Shown here: in pieces, positions 14,720 to 61,187 of the stretch
Layout: each line of letters opens with the position of its first letter
How positions within the stretch are numbered: position 1 is the stretch's first letter
DNA from: Clavelina lepadiformis
Lineage: Eukaryota; Chordata; Ascidiacea; Aplousobranchia; Clavelinidae
DNA: 64,000 bases
NCBI RefSeq assembly: GCF_947623445.1
Contig: NC_135242.1
Coordinates: forward strand, 21,948,001-22,012,000
Direction: 5' to 3'
Notes under the pieces: generated by a model
What the model was told of the DNA's origin: nothing
Databases searched by the model: none
What the model saw: the letters and a program-made list of their open reading frames with translations, nothing else
Translations under genes and position numbers: made by a program

Positions 14720-17700
14720 ATGGAGGTGAGAAGAGTTGAGTTGTTTTGAGCCTTGACACCATGCTTGTGATTAGCTGGATTTATTTCTGCTGCTCGGTTG
14801 TATCGATATTATATCAATGTCAGTTTAAAATGAAGTCTTTTTCTGTGTATATTTTTATTTCATATACATCAAGAAAATTTCTTTATTACCTATTACAACA
14901 ACTCTTACTAATATATATACTTGTTACAGTGTAATAATTTTCAAAATCCCTAACTACTAAGCCATCTGTTGGTAGTTGCTATTAGTGGTAATTTTCATCA
15001 AAAAGATGAAACATAAATGCATAAAAATGGAGTTTAACTGTTAGCAACTGCAGGGTTAATGTTTCAGAAAAATTAGTTTATTTTGCAGCATATCAGTTTT
15101 ACTAAATATAACAAAATATTTATTTGATGCTACGCAGTGTACTTTATGAAAAGAGCCATATTGCACTTGGACCCAATGATTAATGATCACACTTTATATA
15201 TTTTTCCAGGCAAATAATATCCCAAGTACATCTGCCAACAACAGCAATGATGATAGTCAAAGTAAGTAGTGATCAGCTTCTTCAGTGAATTTGTAATAGA
15301 CTGGAAATAATACACTGCTTTGTGGCGGCAATGTTTACAATTATAGTATTAATGTATTAATTATACCATTGAAATACAAATATTATAATTGCAATAAAAT
15401 CATGCAAAGGCATCATTATTATCCTACTACTGTTAAGTTACTAAATCTAAAATATTGAGTAAATAAGCCTATTTGTCTTCTTGACAGATTCCATAAACAT
15501 ACAGCAAAGTTCTGTCCACATTGGAGATACGTATCATCATACAGGTAAGCAGACATATCTACTTAACTTCAAAGATTGTATAAATTCACTGGAAAAAAAA
15601 AACAAATTTAACCAATACGCTGGTTAACTAATGTTTTATTTGAAGTGCTGGACCAACATTTTATACAGGGCTGGGATGATTAGACAAATTCCATTTTTAG
15701 TATTTCTATTTTTCATAACAATAAAGATCAGAGGCAACAAAGAACTGAATACCATTTGCAAGACCATCGCAGTGTTCGTATTGATCAACACATTCAAGGC
15801 CCGCTTCATACCGAGGATCAGCGCACTGTGCATTACCATGACAATCGTACCACTCATTATCACATGGAACAAACTACAAGTGTTCAGCCCAATGAACCAA
15901 GTCAATTGCCGAGCTCTGTGAATGATGAAGAACTATGTGAGTCCATAAAATGCTTGCGATAGTTTGCAGTTTATGATATCATACTATAGTTTGATAGATA
16001 GATGAATGCTAGTACATTGTACTTAGTCATAATGCAAACCACATTTGCATCAAATAGTCTTGCTGTTACTAGATAAGTTTTGACAATACCTCATAGATTA
16101 TTTACTTTTTACGAACTAGCACGTTAATTATCTGCTATCAGCCATAACATGTGTTATAAACTTTTAGTTGTATGTATGCTATTGCTACAGAAAAAGTTGA
16201 TTTATTATTTATAGTATATAAAGATTCTTTTTGCTTGTAATAGTGTGCACTTGTCCTTAAAAATAATTATGAATTGTTTCGGTCTGGTCTAAGGAGATTA
16301 GTTAAAGACTTGTAATGATAAGCTGAATCCAATATTGTTTACTTTTGTTATGAAGCTCTTTAGGTTACAAAGTTGCATATTATTTTTGACTTATTTTGAG
16401 AATTTTTAAATTACCTATTTTTCAACAATGTTATCTGCATTATTCTAATGATCACCACCTGACGGTCGATTTACATAATTTGATACCTTCACACTACCAA
16501 AATATTGCAGCCCAAAACTGGACCTGCAAAATTATGTGTGTTTAGAGTTACGCTATTAAACAGACAAGATGAATTGTGAGAAAAATTTCATTAAGATTTC
16601 AGCTTTCAGTTTAACTCTGTAATTTCAGCTAGGGGAGGTAAACTGCATTAAACTGGTCTAAATTTCATGATTTTCAAGACTACATAGCAAACATTGAAAG
16701 AAATATAATTTGTTGTGACGAGAACTGATGAAGTCTTAAATCGGTCGAATTAAGTTAACAATCATAGTATATTTGAGCAAGCCAATTTAGTTGGATTTTT
16801 AAAGTTAAGGCTAAAATATCACATGCACCGGCAAAATTAGTTGATATCCAAGCTTGTGATAAATCTGAAAGTGAAATTGGACTAAATTGTACATATGAAA
16901 TAGAATACAGATAAGCTGTATTTCACATGGCTAGTAACTTATAAACATGGTGACATGAAACTATCATTTTATGTACACATTGCGGCTTGGCATGGAATCA
17001 ACTAACATAACGAACAACCTCAGAGAACTTTCTACTGTTGTATTGTGAAATTTTAGTCAACTTCAACTTTGGGTATTGTCTGAATTTACGGATGGGTTGA
17101 GATGGTCTTAGTTTATTTATATTGTTTTTTGTCACTCATTGTCGTATTAAATGCAGAGAAAGGTAATCTACATAATTAGTATACTGTCAATGGATAGATC
17201 TCAGTTCTATTCCTTATTTTGCGTAACAATTAGCCGTTAGTATGTTGGCAATGAGCGCAACAAAATCTTCGAGACTAAAGAACAGGTTGGTGCTGTACTT
17301 CTAGACCAGTGGTTCTCAAAGTTTTTTTCCGATTCCTCCCTTACCAACCAAAACACCGTCAATCCCCCCCCTCCCCCAAACAATCACAAAAAAATAATTT
17401 CCAAAATTTTACACTACCTGAATATTGTCCCTGGATGATGTCTTTTGAAGATTTATCTCAAGAATAAAATTCAAAATTGCAAAAGAACGCTCTTACAAAA
17501 TAACCAAACAAATTTACAAACAAATCGTTGCTCATTGTTAGTGAGAATCGTTAGCCTCATGTTGGGAAGTTAATAAAGAAAATCGAGGAGAAAAGCGTGT
17601 GAGTTTTGCTCGAAGGTCTCCGCAAATATCGTGTGTTCCTCTTTTTTTCATCACTAGCTTACTAGTTAGTTCTATAAGTACCTTACTAACAATAAAGAGA

Positions 17701-20700
17701 AAACAATAGCCATTATGAACCAAACAGACACGTTTATAACGTCAGTCACTGCAATTAAGTAGCTTGTCCTCGCGCACTATTGTAGACATCTAAACAACCT
17801 CTTCGAGAAGATTTTTCTGTTACAAATAAAATTAAAGTTTTTTTCATATACAGTTTTTCCTCCCCAATTCCTCTAGAGAAAATTTCCTCCCTGGAATTAA
17901 AAATTCCCCCTTTAGTGAGCCAAGTGGCCCGGTTTGAGAAGCACTGTTCTAGACCTTACAGCTATCTACATCACATTAGGGCATCGCGGCTTTCCCTGCA
18001 AGCTGCTCTGTCTGCTCCCAACAGGCACATGGTCCATATGATTATGGAGCTTGTTTACAACCAGGGCTTTACCTTCACCACCAGTCATGGTCAGCGAAAC
18101 AGGCTAGAACAAGAACGGCATCCCAAAAGGATTGTACCCTTTATTTTTAACATCTATACCCAATTACCCATAATCTGTCAAACTTGTGTACTCGGTAAGG
18201 AAACAGTAGAAGGGACCTTTTTCCAGGACATGACTACCTTGTCGTCTTACCTCCATAAATGGTGATTGAAACTCAGCAAAACCAAAACAATATCAATAGC
18301 TTTTCACCTTAAAAACAAAGAAGCAAAACATGACCTTAAAGTTTGCTTCAACGGTTTGCCTGTGTCTTTCTGTCATTTCGGACCTTTTGCTGTCAACGTC
18401 ACTCATTCTTTCGCTTGTCCGGCAATGGAGCCATCCCACCTGCTCCAGTCAAAGCTGTCAGCTTCTGCAAATATGCAAGCCCAACGACTAAAATCAAGAC
18501 ACTAATATTTACCAGCCCCATTTAAGTTGCTAGAACAAATCAAGGGCTCAAACTTCTTTGCAGCTAATTGGGCGGACCATAAATGGTGTGTGGGGTGACA
18601 GCAAAGCCCAACTTCGCCAATTAACCACCGACGCCAACTCTCATTTCATCAAACTTTTACTATCCAGTTTGGCCTGGGTACGACTTAACTGCCAGCGGAC
18701 CGGGGCTGGACGTTGTTGTTCAAATTTGTACAAATGAAATGCGGTTTATGTGAATTCAAAATATCTCAAAGGAGTGAGAGATAGCGAGTTTATTTGTGAT
18801 TATTGTGTAAGGAAGTTGATGGGATGATCAAACACAAACACATACTTTGGTTTGTTTGTTGTTTTTCATTATTTGAAGTGTTTCTGTAAACAGTTTGTAT
18901 ACTTCATTTTCACCATTGAATTTTTGTTCTTTGATTCAACAGATCATAAATTGGAAGAAACTCTAAAAGACAGGGCCAAAATTCTTGCTTATGGTCCCTT
19001 GGAAATGCCAGTTGACCTCAATCAAAATATTGAAGCAGTTTCCCTTGAGATATCGCGACTACCTCTCCATGTTGTCGCTTTACAGGATTTAGGTCACTTC
19101 CATCGAAGAATAGATTTCTTATCGAGATTTTTTGTGAACAATCCTCACTCCAGTCATGTGTCCAGTAACAGCCTTAATCCAAACCAACTCTTTGTAGCTG
19201 CAAAGTTTTCTGCATCGCAAGAAGCCACCCAAAAGTTTGGTTCAGTAATGGGTCATGATCATGAGAAATATATTCAAACTTATGGCAACATTGTTGGAGT
19301 CATTGGACAAGCTGGTATTGGCAAATCTACTTTAACAAAGCTTCTGGTAAAAGCCATTCTTGAAGGAGACATGGATGTTCAGGCAAAATATATTTTCCAC
19401 ATTGCCTTTCGTGATGTCGATTTCACAACAAAATGCAATTTTTTTCAGTTTCTTATGACAAGCAGTTTATGTGATTGGGAGCACCATGATGCATCAGATA
19501 AAAAATTACTGAAACGTCTGAACCAGTGTGATGACGTTGTTCTGATTTTTGACGGCTTTGACGAAGCCATTATCACAAAACCGAAACATTGGGCATCAAA
19601 TATTTATCTAACAGGGCAAGCAACTGCTGAAACCTTCATCAAGAATATTATGTGTGGTAGGCTGCTACCACGAGCCAAGAAACTTTTCACTTCAAGGCCA
19701 AGGCAGTTTTATGAGCTGCATCATAATTACATTCCACGTTTTCTTGTCACTGTCTTAGGATTAAGTGAAGCCTCCCAGAAAGAACTATGCCAGAAAATTT
19801 GTGGTGAAAGAAGTGGCCAAGTTATCCAGTATTTGGATGACAATCCTGATATCTCAGCGTATTGTTATGTGCCAGTAAATTGCATTTTAACCATGCATTG
19901 CATCCACTCATGCATCATTGAGGGTGAAGAAGCCAGCTTGAAATCGATGACTAGCATCATGGCATTTGCTCTGGATGGATTTGTGAGGTCCGAACACATG
20001 CGTGGTCATGAAAGTGAAGTCTCTAAGCTTGCAGATTTAGCCTGGAATGGTTTCCAGAAACAAAAGATTGTCTTCAGTGAAGACGATTTAGCAGAAGTGA
20101 AAATCAGCACTAACACCTTGCATTCCTTCCTAAATACTTCTGTAAACTTTCATAGCAAATTGCGAGTTGGGGTGAAGATTCTAGATGGTGACAAGAGGAG
20201 CTATTTTGCGCACCTGATCTGGATGGAGTTCTTTGTTGCAGTAAAGATGATTTTTTTCATGACAACCAGAGAATTTCAACTTTGGGTAACCAAACTGGGT
20301 GAAAATAGATTTGAAGTTGTTGCAAAATTTGTTTATGGCTTTTGTGCTGAAGAAACATCAGAACGTTTAAGAAGAATTTTCTCTCTCAATGATGGTGGTA
20401 GTTTCTTTCAAAAAAAAGACATGTTGAAAGAGTTTTTGCTTCAATTTACACCCATTTGCTTTCACAGTGGTAGAAATTCTTCCGACTATTTAAGCATTTG
20501 TGGATGGCTGAAAGAAGCAAATTTACATGATTTCAATAATGCTGTGTCTTTTGTTTTGCCCAAACAACTTTCACTTTTCAATGCCGTTCTGCCGAGTGAT
20601 ATTTCAAATTTTCATTACCATCTTCGCTCAAACAATGACTACTGGGTGTTGACTGTGTCGCTAAATGCTACGTATTTAGAGGGTAGCTGTCATCGTATTT

Positions 20701-23700
20701 TTCATGAGATGGCTACAACAATGCAACAAAACACAAACATTAAGGTAAGATTCATGTAAGTCACATGTTACCTGGCATATCGGTGCTAATATGTATATGC
20801 ACATTTTGATTTCATATTAACTTACAACATATGATTTAAATATTAATTTATAACAGAGCTGTTTGCATAATATTTTTACGTATTGGATTTTTCATGTTTG
20901 AACTAATATTTTTATGTATTGGATCGTTAGCTTACATGTTTAGTGAAATTTTTGTTAGTTAGTTTACATGCTTTGATGAAATTTTTGTTTTTGTTACATT
21001 TTCAGATTGAAAGAGTAGACATTCCTGAAAGCAATATTTCAGATATGGATATGGAAGCGATGTGCAGATGTTTGCCTATAATAAGAACTATTTCGATATC
21101 TAAGTGTGTCATTACTCAGCAGCAAATGTCTAAACTGGGACAAAGCATTGGGCGTCTGGAAGCCCCAGTAAGCACATTTGTGAGATAAATTAAGTTAAAT
21201 ATTTGTTAGCATCATACATGGTTTTTATGCTGAAAAATATGTTAAGATGAGCATGAGAAAGCAGGTAACACATAATCGTTTATGGTGAACGCTTTTGAAA
21301 ATGATACTCAGTTATGATAAAATAATTTAAAGTTTTTAAAACTATAAACTCTACCATAGATGCCATAAGAATTATTAATTAAAATGATGCGCAATTTTTT
21401 TTACTGTAGATGGATGAGTTACGTCTGAGTGATATCCGTTTGGAAGACAGTAAAGCAAGAGATTTGTCAACATGTATTCACAATATAAAAACACTGAGTT
21501 TGGATGACGTTGGCATTTCCTTTGCTGGAATTGAGTTTTTGTCAAATGCAATTGAACTACTGACAGAACCAGTAGGAGTTTTTCAGCTATAGATTTGATC
21601 TTTTTATATGTTAGTAATAACTAATAAGTCAATAATGAATTGGAAAGTTAGTAATGTTGATAACTACTTGTGGAAAGTTAATAAGTTTTATTCATGTCAT
21701 GATGATTAGCGATAGCCATGTTATTAACCCAATTTTTGTGAGAAATGAAGATACAGTATATTATCTGTTTAGTTTACTATTTCCGTGGAGATACTTTTCT
21801 ATATATGCTATCAGTTTGATGAAGAATTTTGTTAATAAGAGAGTTTGCTTTTTACTACAGAGATTTTTCATGAAAACTGTCTTCAAGTTCTTTTAACTTC
21901 GAAATCATATGGGTGGTGCATATGTTTGAGTGATCATTAACATTTACCACATATCAAATATCCAGTTTTGCATATAAATTTGATGTCTTATGATTTTTAG
22001 ATGGATCATTTTAGCATCAACGGCAGAAAGTTTTATGATAATGAAGTTCAGTGCCTAACTAAATGCCTTGGAAATGTAAAAGTATTTTTCATGGGTAAAT
22101 CGGAAATGTCAACACGTGGATATGAAATATTATCTCAGGGAATCAAGAGTTTGTCCAAACAGGTATGTGAATTGGTTAAAGGTTCGGTAATCTGTGATAT
22201 TTAACCGCAATATCATACTCAAATCGCAGCTGGAATCGCATTGGAAATTTCACGTAAGATTCAAGCTGTACCCATAAACCAAAGATAGGCTTAGCCGATT
22301 CATTTCACATAAGTTGTTCTTATTTTTGTACAAATTGCTGAGCATGGTTAGGTCATTGTTGTCTAATGTCGAAATTATGATGGTGGCAATCTTTTCCGCC
22401 TTTTACCGGTTTCAACTTTAAGTTGAAAATAGCCATTAGGAAACAACAATACCCAAGTTCATTGGACATCATGTTTACGAAATTAGTAATTATAAAACAG
22501 TCAGACCTCGTTAATTGGGACTACTATGTTTCGTCACAAAATGTCGGTTTAGCAAGGTATCCGGATAATCACAATCAAAACTATAGCAGGGCGAAATTTT
22601 TCATGTCGGACCATACTATTGAACTGTGACTGCAGGCTCAAGGTACTTGAAATTCAAGCCTATTAGACAAGTCCTATGAGTGAGATTGCTGCTTTCATTG
22701 TGTGTAGATAATTGGCTATTGTTTTCGTCATCTACAAACGCACAAAAACTTGCATTCACAACCAATCTTTTTCACTGCACACCTCACCATCTGTTTATCG
22801 GATTTTTTTATATTGATGTACTGTCTATTACATCTGTTCCGAAACTACTGTGTTGGAGCCGTACGGCAGAGTTTCCGGATTAAAAGGGTAAAATGCATGA
22901 GAAGAAATTCACTCCCTGCAGTTTTGTGTCAGATAGTGGAGATTCCGGTTGTTTAGAGTTCGAACTAAAGGGGTCTGACTGTACACCACACAGTTCTTTT
23001 GCTGTTGATTAACTTGACTTATAAATTATTAATTCACGTTGGTTGATATCATAATTAAGATGTCCCATTCATACGCAAACTTGGTGTAACAATTCTAGCT
23101 GCTGTGGACCATGCTTAAAGTCTCAGAAAACCAAAGGAGACTCGAGAGCTTACCGCCTACAGCAGCTCTTGCTCATGTCTACTCCACCACCGAGTGCTTC
23201 GCACTTGTCTGTTATCACAGTAAACACAACCACCAAATTGACACTTTCATAAATGGCGTTTTGTGATTGGATGTCCACACTGCTGGACAATCTTCCCATC
23301 CTTGCGGGCATTTAACCTACTGGTCTTTTCGATGATAAAGCCATTCTTTCTCCCGCTTGTAGATGAACAAGGCTTCTATCAGCTCCATCGAAAACTTTTC
23401 CCCAGGGTAACGAATCAGGCTCGATGACTATAATCACGAAACCCATCCAGCTACACTGCAACCATTAGAGCAAGTTGAAAATTTAGACAACAGTTCGACT
23501 CGTTGGGTGGATCATATATGTAATGTGAAGCGGCAGGAAAGCCCTGCTAGACTTTACAGCTTTATCACCGATGTTACCTTCACAAGAGTAGCAACCCATA
23601 TATATGTCACATAGTGACATATTTTCTCTTGACTCAAATTAACTCAAGTTACCTTGTGACTGTCATATGGCAAAAAATGCAGCTTTAGGTACAAAGTCAA

Positions 23701-26700
23701 ATATTATTCTAAGAAATTACAATTTTCGAAAAAATATTCACCACGCTAATTCGGAAACAGCCACGATATTTTGACAACCAAGTTAACGCAAAGCATAGTA
23801 TAATAGCAGTAATTATAATCACAGTTTTAATTTGACTCGAATCTCAACTAAAATTGACTCGACTTGACTCAAGTTACAACTCAAATTGATTCGGTTTTAC
23901 TCAAATCAGAAAAAATGGTATGTTTGCAACACCGGTATAATACACCACCTGCAAGGGAGGTTAAGTGAGTATGTACAAACTTTACCTATTTTTGTTGCTT
24001 ACTTGAAACGTGCAATTCAAACTTGATTCAAACACCCCATCTTGCACATGGTTTTGACATTGTTCACATTCGACATGTGCCGTCACTTATGTCATAAATA
24101 GTGACAAGTTTGTTTTGTTTGCTTGAAAATGTCTTAAGGATGTATTTTGACAAGTATTTCTTAACCACTAAATGACCCTCAGTTTAAACTTACTATGTAA
24201 GGTGCATTTGTGTTTTTAGTTAGACATGCTAGCAATGCGTGATCAGTTAGGAGATGAAAGAGCGTATGCTTTATCATCATCCATCTGCAACATCAGGAAT
24301 CTTAATGTCAGTGAATGTTGTACCACAGCAAATGGAACAGCATTTTTATCTGAAGCAATTAAAAATCTTATTAAACCGGTAAGAACACATTCAGTTGTGG
24401 TAAACTTTTGTTTATGACCAACAATATTTTTACACATATCATAATTTTTTAGTAGTTGGAATCGTTTTTTAATGTGCATAATGCATGTTCTGTTGTGGCC
24501 TATTTTGTTTCATTACACATTTGTGAGTTACTTAAAATTCAAAATACAAAGTGTGGTAATATCTCTTTTCACGCAGTTGGAGACAGTATTCATCTACGAC
24601 AATAAACTTGGTAATGAAGGGGGTATATCATTGTCAAGATGCATTCATAACATTAAGAAGCTGTATGTGAATGAGTGTGGTTTGAAAGAAGAAGCAATCT
24701 TACATATTTCAAACGCCATTGCTGCTTTAAAACAACCGGTGATTTAAGTTATGAATTTTTTCTTGCTTGTGACCACTCCTAAATAAAGTTGGAACATTAT
24801 TTGATCTGAAATGGTTAAGGTGGAATATCTTAATTTGTCCCGAAACAACTTTGGTGACGAAGGAGCAGTTAATTTGTCGAAATGCATTCACAACATTAAG
24901 GGATCAAATCTTTCAGAATGTGGAATCACAAGTATTGGCATTAAAGCTTTGTCACTCTCTATTTGTAAGGCCTTACATCCGGTAAGTAAACGAAAGCATC
25001 ATTACCTAGTAAACACTCCACCAATTCATAAACAATAAACATAATACTACCCAGAAAGTGCTGCATATATAATTTGCTTTTGTAGACAAGTTATTTTACG
25101 CTTATCACAATTATAAAAGTTTCACTGCAAAAGTTTTTATTTATGCGCTGTTAACTATTTTCAGCTTGATAAGATTGATCTTGGCTTTAACAAGCTTGGT
25201 GATGCCGGTGCTTTGTCATTGTCAACATGTTTGCATAACATTAAAACTCTGAATGTTGCAAATTGCGGCATAAGCAAAGTTGGAATCAAAGCTCTTTCAA
25301 GCGCTATTATGAGCTTGCCTCATCCGGTACGATCATATCTATCTCTTTCTATGTACTGCACACTTATGTGAAATACAACTGCATGTTAATTGATTTTTCA
25401 TGAGTTCAAGAATAATAAATAAGGCTCTTTATCATTCCGAGAAATACTGGCCATCTAGAAAGATTAATCAATATTTTTGAAGTAATTAATGTATATTCGA
25501 ATCAATCTGTTGATGTATTTCTGATTTGACAATATATTTGGCATTATTATTCTCTTGAATAGGAAACATCACACACCACCCACTCACTCATTTGTAAAAT
25601 TGAACCATACTTTGAATGTTTTGTTGGTTACCCTTTCTTAAGGAGTTTTGTAAAGTTGGTATTTTCTAGTGATTATTATATGACATGTGCTATCATATAG
25701 CGTCATATTGTCATGAAATATTTTAATATTTTGATAGCTGGAAGAACTTTGGGTAAACTTCAATGAGTTTGGTGCAGAAGGTATTGCTTCATTGTCCCAA
25801 TGTCTTCACAAAATAAGAAGGTTACATGTCATGAGTTGCCACCTCACATCCAATGATATCAGTCCGTTATTCGAAGCTATAGGGCGCCTTTCAACACCAG
25901 TAAGAAAATTTTGCTAAAATTGCTTATTTTTTATTCATTTAAACCATTACGCATGTAAATTTGTCATAGAAATTGTTACTGACAAACTTCATGCCAATAC
26001 GTTTTCTTTGAAGCTGTTGGCCTATACATTAAAGAAGTTATAGATGGAATATATGTTTATAGATGGAATTTTTGACCGTGTCGCAAAACCCCTTGGGGGA
26101 TCAAGGCGCTTTTGCTTTGGTGGAATGTCTTCATAAAATAAAAAAAGTTAGATTGAGTTACTCCAAGATCAAGAAAGATGGAATAGCAGCTATCTCCACA
26201 GCAATCAAACGTCTGCCAAGACCTGTAAGAAGTTGTAGGTTATAGCTTATGTTAAGTGTGTTTACTTCTGGTTTGTAGCAGTTGCTTTTTTGTTACCTTA
26301 GGCAAGGCTAATGTTGGCAGCTGACATTAATTTAAGCTCAATGTGAACAATACTTGTTATGTGCATGAACTACAGTTGTTCGAATATTTACATAATGGAT
26401 TTTTAGTAAAAACTTTTCTGTTCCACCAGAAGAAAAGCTTTTAAATCATTTCTTTTCAAATCGAGTTAAAAGAAAATGGTAACATGCCATAACATATTTA
26501 AAAGAGGTCTATAAATACAAAACTGTTGTTATAATTAAATAACAAGGTTTGCATTAAAGCCTATACTCTGACATTTGTTATGTTTGAATGTTTTGTCCCA
26601 CGCTAAAACAGTTTGTAATTCTACTTAAAAGGAGTTATGCTTTGAATATACATTACTTAATAATGAGCGTCACTCTGCTAATTGAATTACAGCTGTTATG

Positions 26701-39011: not shown

Positions 39012-39359
39012 TCACTGTTCAGCAACTTTTGTCTTTGCTTTCTTCTTTCCATGCTTTTTAAGCCCGTCCAAATTTGCTCTCAGAACACTTGTGTATGCCA
39101 TTTGAAAGCGATTAATGTCTTTTGCATTTACAACTGTGCTCAGCTTCTTTTTACCATTTGTGGCTCGGATCAGACATAATCCTTCACCCGTAGCTGAAGG
39201 TTGCACCTTCACTTTTACGTTGATTTTGTTTTTCCTTGGTTTTGGTTTTGTTCTTCCATCATACTTTTTCATAGTTACATACACTGTTCCAGAATTGCGA
39301 CATTTTTGATACAAAGTGGTTAATTCAGTTAAAAATGCATCATTTTCTAGCAACACCAT
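39012..39359 (-). CDS. SRP14: Signal recognition particle 14 kDa protein
   Basis: This is a single uninterrupted frame of 115 residues. SRP14 pairs with SRP9, binds the Alu domain of the SRP RNA, and slows translation while secretory proteins are brought to the ER. The match runs throughout: MVLLENDAFLTELTTLYQKC, TVYVTMKKYDGRTKP, LIRATNGKKKLSTVV, INRFQMAYTSVLRANLDGLK and a Lys-rich tail. It lacks the Ala-rich extension of the human protein. Vertebrate SRP14 has several introns and this copy has none, yet the frame is intact and has a poly(A) signal nearby, so it is probably the working gene. Confidence 0.95.
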   Translation of the reverse strand: MVLLENDAFLTELTTLYQKCRNSGTVYVTMKKYDGRTKPKPRKNKINVKVKVQPSATGEGLCLIRATNGKKKLSTVVNAKDINRFQMAYTSVLRANLDGLKKHGKKKAKTKVAEQ

Positions 39360-40011
39360 ATTTCCTTATTTTAGCTTCAAATAAGCAAATAACTCAGCCT
39401 TACCACTATTAGAAGAATATATTAGTTCATTAGCTACAGAGCTATAGTATGGTTGTGTACAGACTAAAATATGGTAAGGTATCGTATCAAATCTTTCTCA
39501 TTGGTTTGAGGAAAGTCTTTGTTTGACTGAAACTTGGCGAAAGTTCCAATACACACACGTTTTTATGTAGACCATAGTGGAAAGTCTGGCAACTAAACAC
39601 ACGAGACTCATCAGCGAGGATGCTTAAATTTTTTTTCCTTGCGCCGATTTATAATAAATAAACAAAGAATTGAAAGCTTCAGTGCATGCCTTCATACCTA
39701 ATATGCGTCTTTGCACTCATGGTTTTGTGTATTATGACTAATAAATAAATATACACAATTTGTTTATTTATTATAATAAAGTGTGAAATTGACAAATTTC
39801 GGTGTGCACGTTTATAAATCTCGTGCGTGCAACCGTAACACTTTCGATTCTGGTCTGTCACAGAACCTCCGCTCAAACACAGACCATTTTGAGTCTATAA
39901 ATGTAGCACATATAAATATTTTTGTTTTTTATCAAAGCCAAACATGCTTATAATGATATTGATTGCCATTGTTGGGCTTCATGAAGGCATGTGTGATTGC
40001 AAGAGTGTGAC

Positions 40012-52800: not shown

Positions 52801-55800
52801 ACGCCGGCTACATCAACTAGCAATGGATTTAATACTTTCAAAGAAGAAGTAAGATTTTTGCTCCAAAGTCACTCAGCGTATCTGTCAGATTCAGTAAATT
52901 AATATGTCATCCAGGTTAAATCAACGTGCTCCGATCTTCTTTTGGATGAAGAAACGTCTGACAAAATCCTGATGACTGCATGGGAATTTCTTGCGGATGA
53001 GAAAAAGCAATGGTATGCGAATCAAACTCTGTGTTCAACTGCTACTAAATCACTGAAAGCAAATACAATGATGAGAAGAAGACTATCGAGACAGAAGCCT
53101 TATCGACCGATATCGGTAAATAAAATTAGTCAGACAGACTCCTTATTTCTATTTTATCAGCAACCATAGGATAAATGACAGATACATTCATGCACAACAT
53201 GTTGGTAGTGCCCTAGATTAGGAATAATGAACAAAACATGTTTGTTCTGTTTTAGTTTGCAATGAAAACTAACACTAGACCATTCTTGGCTTGGAATCCA
53301 AACACGCGTTATCGATCAACGAGATGCAAAAAATGTGATGCGTGTCGGGCTCCAAACTGTGGAAAATGCATACACTGCAGGTAATTAATAATTTACACAC
53401 GTTGCAGGCGCTTGACCCTATTCTATTATTATTTTCCATTTCTAATCAATTGCAATAAACGGCAGCCGCCACACACTGCACTAAAGAAATAAATCTAAAA
53501 ATTTAACTGCAAGTGAAAGAATATGTAAAAGTGCAAATATGAATATTGTATGAATAATAATGTAAGTGTGAATATGAATATGTAAATATGTAAAATGTAA
53601 AAGTTACAACTGTTATAGATGGAAAGAAAATTCGAAATCTTTTAATACTCAAAATTTAAACTGCAGAGACATGAAACAATTTGGCGGCTCAGGCCGTAAG
53701 AAACAAAGCTGCATTCAGCGGAGGTGTCAGTTCAAAATAAGACGCGATGAACCTCCTACGATGGCGCAAAGATATGTTACGTTTGAAAAATCACCGCTAG
53801 CTCCTGTTTGTAATAACTTGACCCCCGCTCAAAGACATTCTGATTTTCTTCCGCCACCTTTACTTGACTTTGATGAGCCAAGGACTTCTACTCCTGTTTT
53901 GTACAGCAGCACGCCTATCAGAAAACCAAATCTAGACTACTGCTCGCAAGTTTCCAGCACCAGAGTCAACAGATTTCCAATTATGTCTACTACCCCTTTA
54001 TTTCCTGAGACAGAACTGCCACTTTCATTTACAGACGACACTCCTCTAGCACTTGTTACATCCATAACTGATCAACCAGAATTCGTCCAGGACTTAACTG
54101 CAAACACCATTCCATTCACTGACGTGTGTGCCACGACTTTTAACAAGGGTTTACCAGTCACTGCAACCCCTGTAGAGCACAATATCCTCATTCAGACAAC
54201 TGTTGAACAGCAGATATCGGCAAGTAGAGAAAAATCAAATTTTCTGGAAAATTTGCCGACTTTGCCTTCAACTGTTCGGCCAAGAGAAGAAACTGACAAC
54301 AGTGATGGTATAAAAACGCCACCAGCATATAATATAGACAGTGCAGGCAACAGTGTTGATTATGATGTCATCAGTTGCTTAAACAGTCCACCCCGCACAA
54401 CTGATGACAATGCGGAAGCAGTTCGAAATGTTTCCAAGGGTAGTACAGACAAGAAATCTGAATCTGCCATACACTCACCACCTGTGTTAAACGAACGTTT
54501 GATTGATTCTTCAGTTGACAAAACGATATCCGTTCTCAGCACCACTTACGTTGAATCGCCAAACAACATGGATTGCGATGATGATGTAAAAACACCACCA
54601 ACGTTCAAAGCCTGTCTGTCTGATGAGGATGTTCTTGCTACTGGTTCACCTGACAAAGATTGTCGTACTTTTCAAAATGAAGACGATTCTGTTGTAAATG
54701 AGGATACGGAAATTGAACAGGAGAAAAGCAGGTCCTCAGGTTTCAACTCAGAAGTTGAAGGAATAAGCGGCATTAAGGAATTGCCCAACAGCAGCAGCCA
54801 ATATACAGATACAAAAGTGAATAACACCCGAAATGCAGTCACATCAACTTCAAATGATAAAAATAGGACTGTAGAAAAATCTTCAGTGATAGCCCAATCA
54901 AGCAAGGCTGCTGCTTCAGTCTATGATCAAAACAGCAGAAAACAATATTTTGAGGTTACCGACACATGTTTTGGCAACCATAAACAGCCATCATATTTGG
55001 AATTCTACAGGTCTCCAATCAAGCATATGCAAAAAACCAAAGAAACTCCACCAAGAATCAGACGCGTTGAATGCAACTACCAGCATAATACTCCACTTTT
55101 ATCCCCACCAACTCCCAAACACCATAGACCAACTCAAAGACAAAGATACTGTATTGAAGATGGACGTCAAATCAGACCATTTGTCAGTCCGTCCAAAGTA
55201 CGTAGTGCAATGAGTGGATATGAAATGGAAAGACCGTTTGTTGATCCATCTGTTTTATACAAACCTCATCAGTACGTGGAGCATGACACACATTTTTTTG
55301 GAGCCAGCGATTTTTCTGAAGCCAATCCAGGCAATAGTAAAAACATATTTCTTTCAGAAGACATCACGGAGACGTTTACAAGTGATCTTCAACATGTGAG
55401 TAACATGCAGCTGTTTCTGTGACATGTCAGTAATTAAGCTGTGAATATGTCTTTGGTGTCGTAGAGTACAGAAATTGATTGCATAATTGTTCGTACTTGG
55501 TAGGAATGCAGACTTTTATATTTTATAAAGTATTAAGTTAACTTGTATTTTAAGGGATGCCGTTACGAGAATGATTATCTGGTTAAAGCAGAAGATTTAG
55601 AATCTGCAGGTTTTCCACAACACAGAGCACATTTTCCACGGCCACCAATGATCCACTACAATTCCCCTAGGCAGCCACAGAAGAAAACTATAAGGAAATC
55701 TACAAGAGGGAAGAGGAAAAATTTTCAAATCCCACAAGACCAGAGAAATAATATGCCTTACATGGACTGGCAGCCCTGTCCAAGACATGGGCATGTAAAC

Positions 55801-58783: not shown

Positions 58784-59561
58784 TACTTTTAATATAGAAT
58801 ATTAAGACGAACCCGAAGCTTTGGGTCAACTCTGGCAACCAACTTAAAATAACATTTTGTTTTTCCAAACTTTATAAATGAATCTAAGATTAATTCCCTC
58901 AGGCCCAAAATCTCAACTCTTATGACTGAATTACTTCTAAACTAAATTTAAAGAAAGAAGCCAAATCCTGGCAGAATTCAAACACTAAACCACCAATATA
59001 CTAGCCTCGATGCCAACCACTACACTACAGAATTATCTTCTTCCTTCACTTGAAAATGATGAACTTACAGGTGGAAATCTGCCAATTCCTATAGCCTATA
59101 TCATATATTGTGATTTTTTAACTTCGGTAAATGAACGCCGGTGAAATAGTCACTAAGCCCAGTTTCGAGAGAGCTTGGATGCAAGGTAGACATCTTAACT
59201 TATATACGGGATTCTTAACTTTGTGAAGTATATACACATGGAATACTGTATATGCAAGCTTTTTGGAAAATTTGTGCACCTATACTGACTTAGTGAAAAA
59301 ACAATGTCAGTTGCTAAGGCCAAGAAAAATTAATATGTGCAAATATACTCCCAATAAGTATTTTATAACATTCTCACGATACGGACGATGGGTGAAGTTT
59401 ATTATGAATGTGTTTTTTGTTTGACTTTCCTTAAACTCAAAAGTGAGTATCTTCACTTTCTTTTGTTGATTAATACATGTATACTTATAACTTGGCTCAA
59501 TCTTTTAGGCAGTAATTTTTTCAAGTGACAATTTGTATTAAATTTCAAATTAAATCTGAAA

Positions 59562-61187
59562 ATGCAGGCTCCAATTATTCTTTTAAAAGAAGGTACTGAC
59601 AGTTCGCAAGGCATCCCTCAGCTTGTGAGCAACATCAATGCATGCCAGGTAATTGCCGAAGCAATTCGCACCACTCTTGGACCGCGGGGAATGGACAAAC
59701 TCATTGTCCAAAACAACGGAAAGGCCACAATATCTAACGATGGTGCAACGATATTAAACCTGCTCGACGTAGTTCATCCAGCTGCAAAAACTTTAGTTGA
59801 TATTTCAAAATCTCAGGATGCGGAGGTTGGGGATGGCACCACCACCGTTACTTTGCTTGCTGCTGAATTCTTGAAGCAGTCAAAGTCTTATGTTGAAGAT
59901 GGTGTGCATCCCCAAATTATTATTCGGGCATACAGGAGAGCAACTCAACTGGCGATAGAAAAGATCAGAGAGATTCAAGTTGAAATTAAAAAAGATGATC
60001 CAAAAGAGCAAAGAGAACTTTTGGAGAAATGTGCAGCAACAGCATTGAGCTCCAAATTGATTGCTTCATACAAGGATCTATTTGCCCCAATGGTTGTGGA
60101 CGCAGTGATGATGCTTGATGATCTTCTTCCTCTAAACATGATTGGCATTAAAAAGATATCTGGTGGTGCGTTGGAAGATTCCAATTTAGTTGCTGGTGTG
60201 GCTTTCAAGAAAACCTTTTCTTATGCTGGGTTTGAGATGCAGCGTAAAAAATACAAAAACCCCAAGATCGCGTTACTCAACGTTGAACTTGAATTGAAAT
60301 CAGAAAAGGAAAATGCAGAAATCAGAGTCAACAATGTCGAAGATTACCAGGAAATTGTTGATGCAGAATGGCAAATTCTTTACGATAAAATGAAACTAAT
60401 ATGTGAAAGTGGTGCTAATGTAGTCCTCAGCAAGTTGCCCATCGGTGATGTTGCTACTCAATATTTTGCTGATCGTGACATGTTTTGTGCTGGACGAGTT
60501 ACACAAGAAGATCTGAAGCGAACCATGAAGGCTTGTGGCGGCAGTATCCAGACCAGTGTCCAACAGCTTACACTCGATGTTCTCGGGACATGTGAAGAAT
60601 TTGAGGAAGAGCAAGTAGGTGGAGAAAGGTTTAACTTCTTCAGAGGATGTCCACAGGCAAAGACATGCACAATTCTTCTCCGTGGCGGAGCCGAGCAGTT
60701 CATGGAGGAAACAGAAAGGTCTCTTCATGATGCAATCATGATTGTGCGCCGGGCCATCAAGAACGATGCCGTTGTTGCAGGAGGAGGAGCAATTGAAATG
60801 GAAATCAGCAAGTACCTTCGCAACTATGCTCGCACTGTCAAAGGAAAGCAACAGCTCATCATTTCTGCTTATGGAAAGGCCTTGGAGGTTACGGCCCGAC
60901 AGTTATGTGAGAATGCAGGCTTTGATTCTACAAATATTCTCAACAAGTTACGACAGGTTCATGCTAAAGATAATGGAAAGTGGTTCGGAGTTGACATCAA
61001 CAATGAAGATATTGCTGATAATTTTGAAGCCTGTGTGTGGGAACCTTCAATAGTGAAAATCAATGCTTTAACAGCGGCATCTGAAGCAGCTTGTTTAATT
61101 CTGTCTGTCGACGAAACCGTTAAAAATCCTCGCTCCGGGCAGAGTGACCAGCCAGCCCCAGGCAGAGGCCGTGGACGCCCTCGTTAA
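59562..61187 (+). CDS. CCT7: T-complex protein 1 subunit eta
   Basis: This is one uninterrupted frame of 541 residues, close to the usual 543. CCT7 is one of eight subunits of the cytosolic chaperonin TRiC/CCT, which folds actin, tubulin and WD-repeat proteins using ATP. It shows [32 protein letters not shown], the ATP-binding [15 protein letters not shown], the apical-domain [40 protein letters not shown], and the eta-type tail ending GRGRGRPR. The start ATG sits at the expected [13 protein letters not shown]. Vertebrate CCT7 is split into many exons; here there is none, yet the frame is intact. NELFA starts 412 bp downstream on the same strand. Confidence 0.97.

Follow-up and report, generated by a model that had tools for sequence, protein, structure and literature searches.

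An NLR gene that begins with small exons

The window, i.e., the whole 64,000-nucleotide stretch of Clavelina lepadiformis DNA analyzed here, contains an ascidian NLR gene with the NACHT domain, winged helix and LRRs of the animal NLR architecture (Table 1). In the joined 713-residue product, Pfam identified a NACHT domain at residues 226-393 (about 19293-19796) with 64.9 bits and a NOD2_WH winged helix at residues 468-509 (about 20019-20144) with 32.2 bits. The exon encoding them ends with the donor AAG/GTAAGA after 20744. Four exon translations (24577, 24820, 25165, 25738) matched LRR_6, two of them above and two below the curated cut-off. Elsewhere in the window lie a gene for SRP14, a long open frame in which a CXXC zinc finger was matched slightly under the cut-off, and a TCP-1/cpn60 chaperonin gene consisting of a single open frame, which presumably resembles CCT7.

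Table 1. Features of the window (positions count from its first nucleotide).
Feature	Position	Strand	Basis or remark
Exon 1 candidate (ATGGAG, M-E)	14720..14725	+	inferred; least secure part of the gene model
Exon 2, N/S/T-rich linker ANNIPSTSANNSNDDSQ	15210..15261	+	splice sites and frame
Exon 3, motif exon SINIQQSSVHIGDTYHHT, phase 1-1	15488..15544	+	splice sites, frame, L005 counterpart PINIHKSSVHIGDTNV
VHIG core tetrad	15514..15525	+	pattern search; 17 bases at C3:21963514-21963530 correspond to 15514-15530
Exon 4, strand-rich, phase 1-1, hinge ends in EEL	15727..15936	+	splice sites, frame
Exon 5, NACHT and winged helix	18943..20744	+	Pfam
LRR exon region, limits approximate	21006..26230	+	sequence
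SRP14 gene	39015..39365	-	
Long open frame	53581..55419	+	
Chaperonin gene	59556..61184	+	

The predicted joins between exons 2, 3, and 4 and the NACHT exon at 18943 preserve the reading frame. Exons 3 and 4 each complete a split codon with their first two bases, so that exon 4 adds DQRQQ after HHT. The exon 1 candidate scored best among the ATG mini-exons that precede exon 2 in a suitable phase. Exon 3 is flanked by good splice sites (CTTGACAG upstream and GTAAGC downstream). When candidates for phase 1-1 exons were scored over the first 1.8 kb of the locus (L023), exon 3 came first (11.6) and exon 4 tied for second place (8.2). The two weaker repeats that an earlier note on this DNA had described in exon 4 are present; they were delimited by eye as the pseudo-repeats TEYHLQDHRSVRID and TVHYHDNRTTHYHME. 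Pfam found no death-fold domain in the 713-residue model, which agrees with the earlier note, where no CARD, death or pyrin domain had been seen. According to the predicted exon joins, a short motif precedes the NTPase domain, and judged from its sequence the gene begins with this conserved motif at the place where a death-fold domain is usual.

Conservation of the motif exon in the closest paralogue

The search for paralogues covered the whole genome (209 Mb, 95 contigs) and gave at least 64 matches, with 63 of 146 candidates scored; two of the matches were the window's own exons. The closest paralogue among the matches listed is L005 on C5, whose NACHT exon is 62% identical to that of the window gene. 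Its linker, motif (PINIHKSSVHIGDTNV) and hinge exons have the same order and phases as in the window gene, and an exon candidate ENNSSSITRHGFEGTHSHNNENE has the phase of window exon 2. In exon 3, 11 of 16 aligned residues are identical, and both INI and the entire SSVHIGDT are unchanged (INIxxSSVHIGDT). In a Nei-Gojobori style count, the motif exons of the two genes differed with a pN of 0.17 and a pS of 0.65, compared to a pN of 0.34 for exon 4 and 0.21 for the NACHT exon. Fisher tests on the motif exon gave values of 0.001, 0.004, and 0.009 for three alignments of the exon end. Together, these values indicate that exon 3 is coding and under a constraint about equal to that of the NTPase.

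On this sequence evidence exon 3 is more than a chance open frame, and the short VHIG-containing third exon proposed earlier is borne out as real: it recurs in L005 with mostly synonymous changes. The earlier note had named an altered VHIG core between preserved flanks as a refuting condition; in the window-L005 pair, the sole usable paralogue pair, the core is retained, and this check was thus decided in the note's favour. The core alone is not rare, since [VI][QH][VI]G occurs four times in the six-frame translation of the window; the longer pattern S.[VI][QH][VI]G[DN] occurs once. Exon 4 is 47% identical in L005, with RTVHYHDNRTTHYHME as the best-kept stretch (14 of 16 residues).

Motif exons upstream of other NACHT exons

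The survey was extended to L005-L022, the 18 closest NLR paralogues among the matches listed. Upstream of the NACHT exon, 14 of these 18 genes have a short exon candidate with a small motif. The VHIG class is represented by L005, a class termed C by L006-L008 (e.g., NLSNFTGVMNTGDMTVHGDVIITTGH), and a class termed A by L013-L015 (TTIQGSNIVNSNVIMNSGPVTIT). L009 has IRIENSTIGN, L010 has DCQVG, L011 has DCHVG with the altered sister motif ESNIK in L012, and L016-L018 have VNINQTTINQQ and variants thereof. For L019-L022 no motif exon was found (1.5 kb upstream were scanned for L020). Selection of the exons relied on splice score and composition and on inspection by eye; most of the candidates can be read in phase 1-1, with ambiguous exon starts in L006-L008, L010, L012, and L013-L015, some of which have a phase-0 start that is as good or better. 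The hinge exons often end in EL. Pfam gave no match for nine further motif peptides, nor for six more.

A tree built from the 19 NACHT exons groups the genes with VHIG, C, A, and VNINQ motifs each in a fully supported clade, and likewise L011 with L012, of which the latter lacks, by eye, the G present in its sister. The deeper branching is without resolution, with 8 of 16 inner branches open. In L006-L008, which are located on C2 at 0.3-0.63 Mb, pN of the motif exon is about equal to pS and the NACHT exon is constrained. The motif exon of these genes appears either relaxed or diversifying, and its sequence possibly represents a diversifying specificity motif.

A second NLR group is located on C4 between 0.4 and 3.7 Mb (L030, L081-L090), with NACHT domains that in most matches are 26-28% identical to that of the window gene. 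Class-C motif exons are present in three genes of this group: two were recognized in the seven upstream regions inspected, and the third came from a reverse query with the C motif. No class-C exon was found within 1.3-1.5 kb upstream of each of five other NLRs of the C4 group.

Related motif stretches at caspase loci

A query of the whole genome with the C motif of L006 gave one match beyond L006-L008, at C5:21092458 (E 0.0035). Three exon candidates with phase 1-1 were recognized in the region around it (L064); they belong to classes A, B, and C. L070, located on the same strand about 7 kb farther downstream, carries stretches of classes A, B, C, and D ahead of its caspase exons. Pfam recognized Peptidase_C14 in three exon pieces of L070, two of them above the cut-off, and the peptides SHG and QFCRG are present, which we take to be the catalytic His and Cys sites of a caspase; with the domain and both catalytic peptides, L070 is a caspase. 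The L070 candidates have phase 1-1 for B and D and phase 0-1 for A, the exon starts of A and C being ambiguous. No caspase exon was seen in L064, whose array may belong to the L070 gene or be a duplicate.

The genome scan with Peptidase_C14 gave 65 exon matches, 12 of which lie between 20.93 and 21.38 Mb of C5, in a stretch shared with the NLRs L013-L018, L021, and L022. L072 and L074 (A, B, and D) and L073 (A, B, C, and D) likewise have such stretches ahead of protease exons that are related to those of L070; in L079, A, B, and D precede another caspase match. Among the ten caspase-side regions, A-D type stretches were found in five (L070, L072, L073, L074, L079), and no motif was recognized in L075 and L076 by motif search, nor in L077 and L078 by exon scan; L077-L080 were surveyed by exon scan only. 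An A-motif query also gave two partial copies, at C5:21077318 and C5:21499499. Upstream of a caspase match on C8, at positions 1836-1940 of L080, there is a phase 1-1 exon candidate with ITVNSGTGNIIIGQSTQN, which has an IIIG core and a motif unlike A-D.

NLRs and caspases are intermingled on C5 at about 20.88-21.58 Mb (L013-L018, L021, L022, L064, L070, L072-L074), with motif stretches common to both. The caspase L072, for example, is located about 12-15 kb upstream of the NLR L014 on the same strand; PMC12881547 describes a comparable gene neighbourhood for fungal NLR-effector pairs. Regions L062 and L063 contained no NACHT domain, and L063 has, by eye, retrotransposon-like open frames within the NLR/caspase cluster. 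CARD, the one death-fold domain searched for genome-wide, gave five matches, four of them over the cut-off: one beside a caspase on C2, two near a caspase on C9, and two elsewhere. None was found at the NLRs described here or on C3.

Strength of the similarity between NLR and caspase motifs

Besides the query itself, a genome search with the C motif of caspase locus L073 gave an identical copy at C5:21391469 and a match at C4:3464435 (48% identity, E 1.0). The last site is located about 430 bases upstream of a NACHT match of the distant group (27% identical to that of the window), and a phase 1-1 exon candidate there reads QSTNKKSIHLEGANLSNFQGTLNIGGDISGQIA. The reverse query with a C motif of a C4-group NLR matched its own gene and two further NLRs of that group; the only match outside the C4 NLR group was the C stretch of L070 (44% identity, E 0.09). 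Singly these E-values are modest; it is the positions of the matches that make them convincing.

A C profile of 10 columns built from four NLR exons only scored 27.5 bits for L064, 24.1 for L070, and 21.0 for L073. These three sites outranked every site that is no NLR C motif in 382,776 words from 347 kb of partly overlapping loci; the next-best score was 18.8, in L014 and L015 on the other strand. The loci are not a random sample, the C match having been the reason to include L064, and L070 having been added as the flank of L064. In gapped alignments of the NLR A motif with L079, L073, L070, and L064, the score was reached by 7, 95, 2, and 12 of 3000 shuffles, respectively. An A profile without gaps performed less well (215 of 4000). 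Codon tests favoured constraint for C in L064-L070 (Fisher 3.7e-5) and for D in L070-L072 (0.014), and gave no or weak signal for B in three pairs (0.064, 1, and 0.57). The C exon of the C4-group NLR pair L088-L089 has no synonymous and two nonsynonymous changes (test value 1). At the sequence level, these comparisons support the presence of related motif stretches of classes A and C at NLR and caspase loci, with class C occurring in the close NLRs, in the distant C4 NLR group and at caspase loci.

Search for a partner of the VHIG class

In the DNA fetched, a VHIG profile scored high only for the window and L005 (40 bits); the next site reached 18.5. The pattern [IV][HQ]IGD[TNK] had 18 matches in the genome and 22 in the reversed control, i.e., no excess. 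None of the 16 other VHIG-pattern sites was convincing as a motif exon; L055 and L057 are weak splice-bounded candidates in other phases. A genome search with the 20-residue window motif found only the motif itself, and since it missed L005, this search is insensitive. Pattern and peptide searches of the genome and the profile search of the DNA fetched revealed no caspase or further gene of the VHIG class beyond the window gene and L005, and the kinase or adaptor with a matching motif that the earlier note had envisaged in the same genome did not emerge. Within the N-terminus of the window NLR, the C profile scored another site higher than the window motif. Aligned with the motifs of L079 and L080, the window motif was no better than chance (585 and 450 of 3000 shuffles), and with that of L073 the match was weak (126 of 3000).

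Proposed signalling mechanism and alternatives

The occurrence of common motifs in related NLRs and caspases suggests a signalling route. We propose that exons 3 and 4 would form the signalling module of the window NLR in place of a CARD, pyrin or death domain. Such a module would consist of short, probably strand-forming motifs on small exons, open to duplication and exchange. Oligomerization of the NACHT domain into a wheel would cluster the N-terminal motifs, which could then stack with cognate motifs on an effector and activate it by proximity. In the case of classes A and C, the sisters of the VHIG class, the effector would most likely be a caspase, given that the protease exons of caspase genes in this genome are preceded by related motif-coding stretches. 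The proposal builds on what was read from the DNA, namely exon 3, its conservation in L005, the motif slot of the paralogues, and the likeness of NLR and caspase motifs. We infer from this that the exons are spliced as modelled, that motif would bind to motif, that binding would activate the caspase, that the VHIG class would act likewise, and that amyloid might be assembled. For the window gene, we consider the chances about even that effectors are recruited through the motif without a death fold.

The pairing of the motifs may occur by amyloid as in fungi or through a small folded beta module. In the former case, NLR wheels would nucleate fibres of exon-borne amyloid motifs that recruit and activate motif-matched caspases, and VHIG would represent a RHIM-convergent class; this full reading is tentative, and we regard it as rather unlikely as a whole. 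The earlier note had already suggested that the receptor may signal by amyloid seeding. In 18 motif peptides, strand alternation was no better than in shuffles (p 0.15 to 0.99) and was discarded as proof of amyloid. The motif exons exceeded exon 2 and the hinge exons in beta/aggregation propensity (Mann-Whitney about 0.002), in sets picked by eye that include near-duplicates and by rough propensity scales.

The alternative that the motif exons encode ordinary small folded beta modules, e.g., closed by NACHT oligomerization, which bind their partners without amyloid, is doubtful as well, if a little less so. The shuffle result on strand alternation and the variation in length and class of the motifs would fit with it, as would the AlphaFold2 prediction of exon 4, in which four regular strands have a pLDDT near 80 followed by a low-confidence tail (mean 72.5, pTM 0.50). 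However, this prediction is based on an alignment of two sequences, and the mean pLDDT of the five models ranged from 72.5 to 51.9. In addition, exons of 16-18 codons are unlikely to fold alone, which argues against such modules.

A further possibility is that the exons are N-terminal NLR linkers under low constraint and that the likeness to caspases reflects an old exon duplication without interaction. The equal pN and pS in L006-L008, the missing codon signal in the B stretch and in the C exon of the C4 group, the composition rich in N, S, T, and Q, and the unpaired state of the window motif are in accordance with this explanation. It is nevertheless improbable in view of the constraint detected in window-L005, in C of L064-L070 and in D of L070-L072, and of the presence of class C both at caspase loci and in two NLR groups, one of which has NACHT domains only 26-28% identical to that of the window gene.

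Relationship of the window motif to the RHIM

The earlier note had described the window motif as RHIM-like. The Pfam model RHIM PF12721 did not match the exon-3 peptide, the N-terminus or the entire protein with E-values up to 10 allowed, a result to be read with the fact that the HMMER filters discard most weak matches. The RIPK3 peptide used as positive control reached 38 bits in the same library. A genome scan with PF12721 gave two subthreshold matches, neither of them in the window; one, L002, by eye resembles a dynein heavy-chain gene and was dismissed. In a PDB search no match was obtained with the exon-3 peptide, and the RIPK3 peptide found RIPK3 and RIPK1. PMC12119088 gives the canonical RHIM tetrad as (V/I)-Q-(V/I)-G and mentions natural variants; the window motif deviates from the canonical form with VHIG, having H for Q.

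Of the 44,007 six-frame 18-mers in the window, 129 reached the summed ungapped similarity of the window motif to RIPK3 and RIPK1; among shuffled sequences, 1235 of 3000 N-termini and 288 of 5000 exon-3 peptides did so. The gapped alignment of the motif to RIPK3 alone was better than chance, with 27 of 3000 shuffles reaching its score. A profile of RIPK3 and RIPK1 did not include the window motif among its ten best sites. With the null result for PF12721 and a working RIPK3 control, the RHIM was rejected as a family label, and RHIM membership of the window motif was not supported by the profile check or by the ungapped tests, which were at or near chance. The likeness consists of the core tetrad and its register, and is as such compatible with convergence. 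A TMEM132 Ig match to exons 3-4 (E 0.0036 to 0.07, below the cut-off) was set aside as likely compositional.

That the motif is a true divergent RHIM by which the NLR signals via RIPK-like or IMD-like partners in an amyloid co-assembly is very unlikely: the V-H-I-G-D core in RHIM register and the RIPK3 alignment equalled by so few shuffles speak for it, but neither peptide nor protein matched PF12721, no site genome-wide passed its cut-off, the ungapped RIPK1/3 tests and the RIPK3/RIPK1 profile failed to single out the motif, and PMC12119088 reports that tunicate RIPK1 homologues were not found.

Comparison with known signalling systems

In bacterial systems with BASS motifs and EAD10, short modules likewise pair an NTPase with effectors. 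The exon-3 peptide showed a weak match to EAD10 (14.5 bits, E 0.037, below the cut-off), and no significant sequence link emerged from this comparison. With the RHIM of RIPK1, RIPK3, ZBP1, and TRIF, the window motif has in common the V-x-I-G-D core with S and hydrophobic flanks; it differs in lacking a match to the RHIM model, in the H for Q, and in its location on an NLR instead of a kinase or adaptor.

The animal inflammasome and apoptosome, in which an NLR or Apaf-1 is connected to a caspase by CARD or PYD, resemble the putative ascidian system in the NACHT receptor, the caspase effector and the presumably homotypic N-terminal modules. In contrast to them, the ascidian genes are without a CARD match and have motifs of about 16-38 residues rather than six-helix death folds.

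Like the NLRs of fungal amyloid signalosomes (NWD2/HET-S, PNT1/HELLP, RHIM-like PP motif), the ascidian NLR has a short N-terminal motif. In fungi, a related motif is present on a separate effector, generally encoded in a gene cluster, as stated in PMC7889193 and PMC12881547. By sequence likeness, classes A and C would correspond to this arrangement, with the NLR motif related to one on a separate effector candidate. The fungal effector is a HeLo-type pore protein, whereas the candidate effector here is a caspase; moreover, the ascidian motifs are located on small exons, form arrays on the caspase side, occur in an animal host, and are only putatively amyloid. Among the literature matches listed, from which subscription journals and preprints are mostly absent, none described motifs of this kind for an ascidian NLR or caspase.

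If the proposed route exists, NLR-to-caspase signalling would not need a death fold, and exon-borne modular motifs would be a means of rewiring it. If the amyloid reading is also true, the system would be an animal counterpart of the fungal amyloid signalosomes with a caspase as effector and a second metazoan signalling-amyloid system beside the RHIM. The motif pairs named here on NLRs and caspases of one chordate are concrete candidates for experiments.
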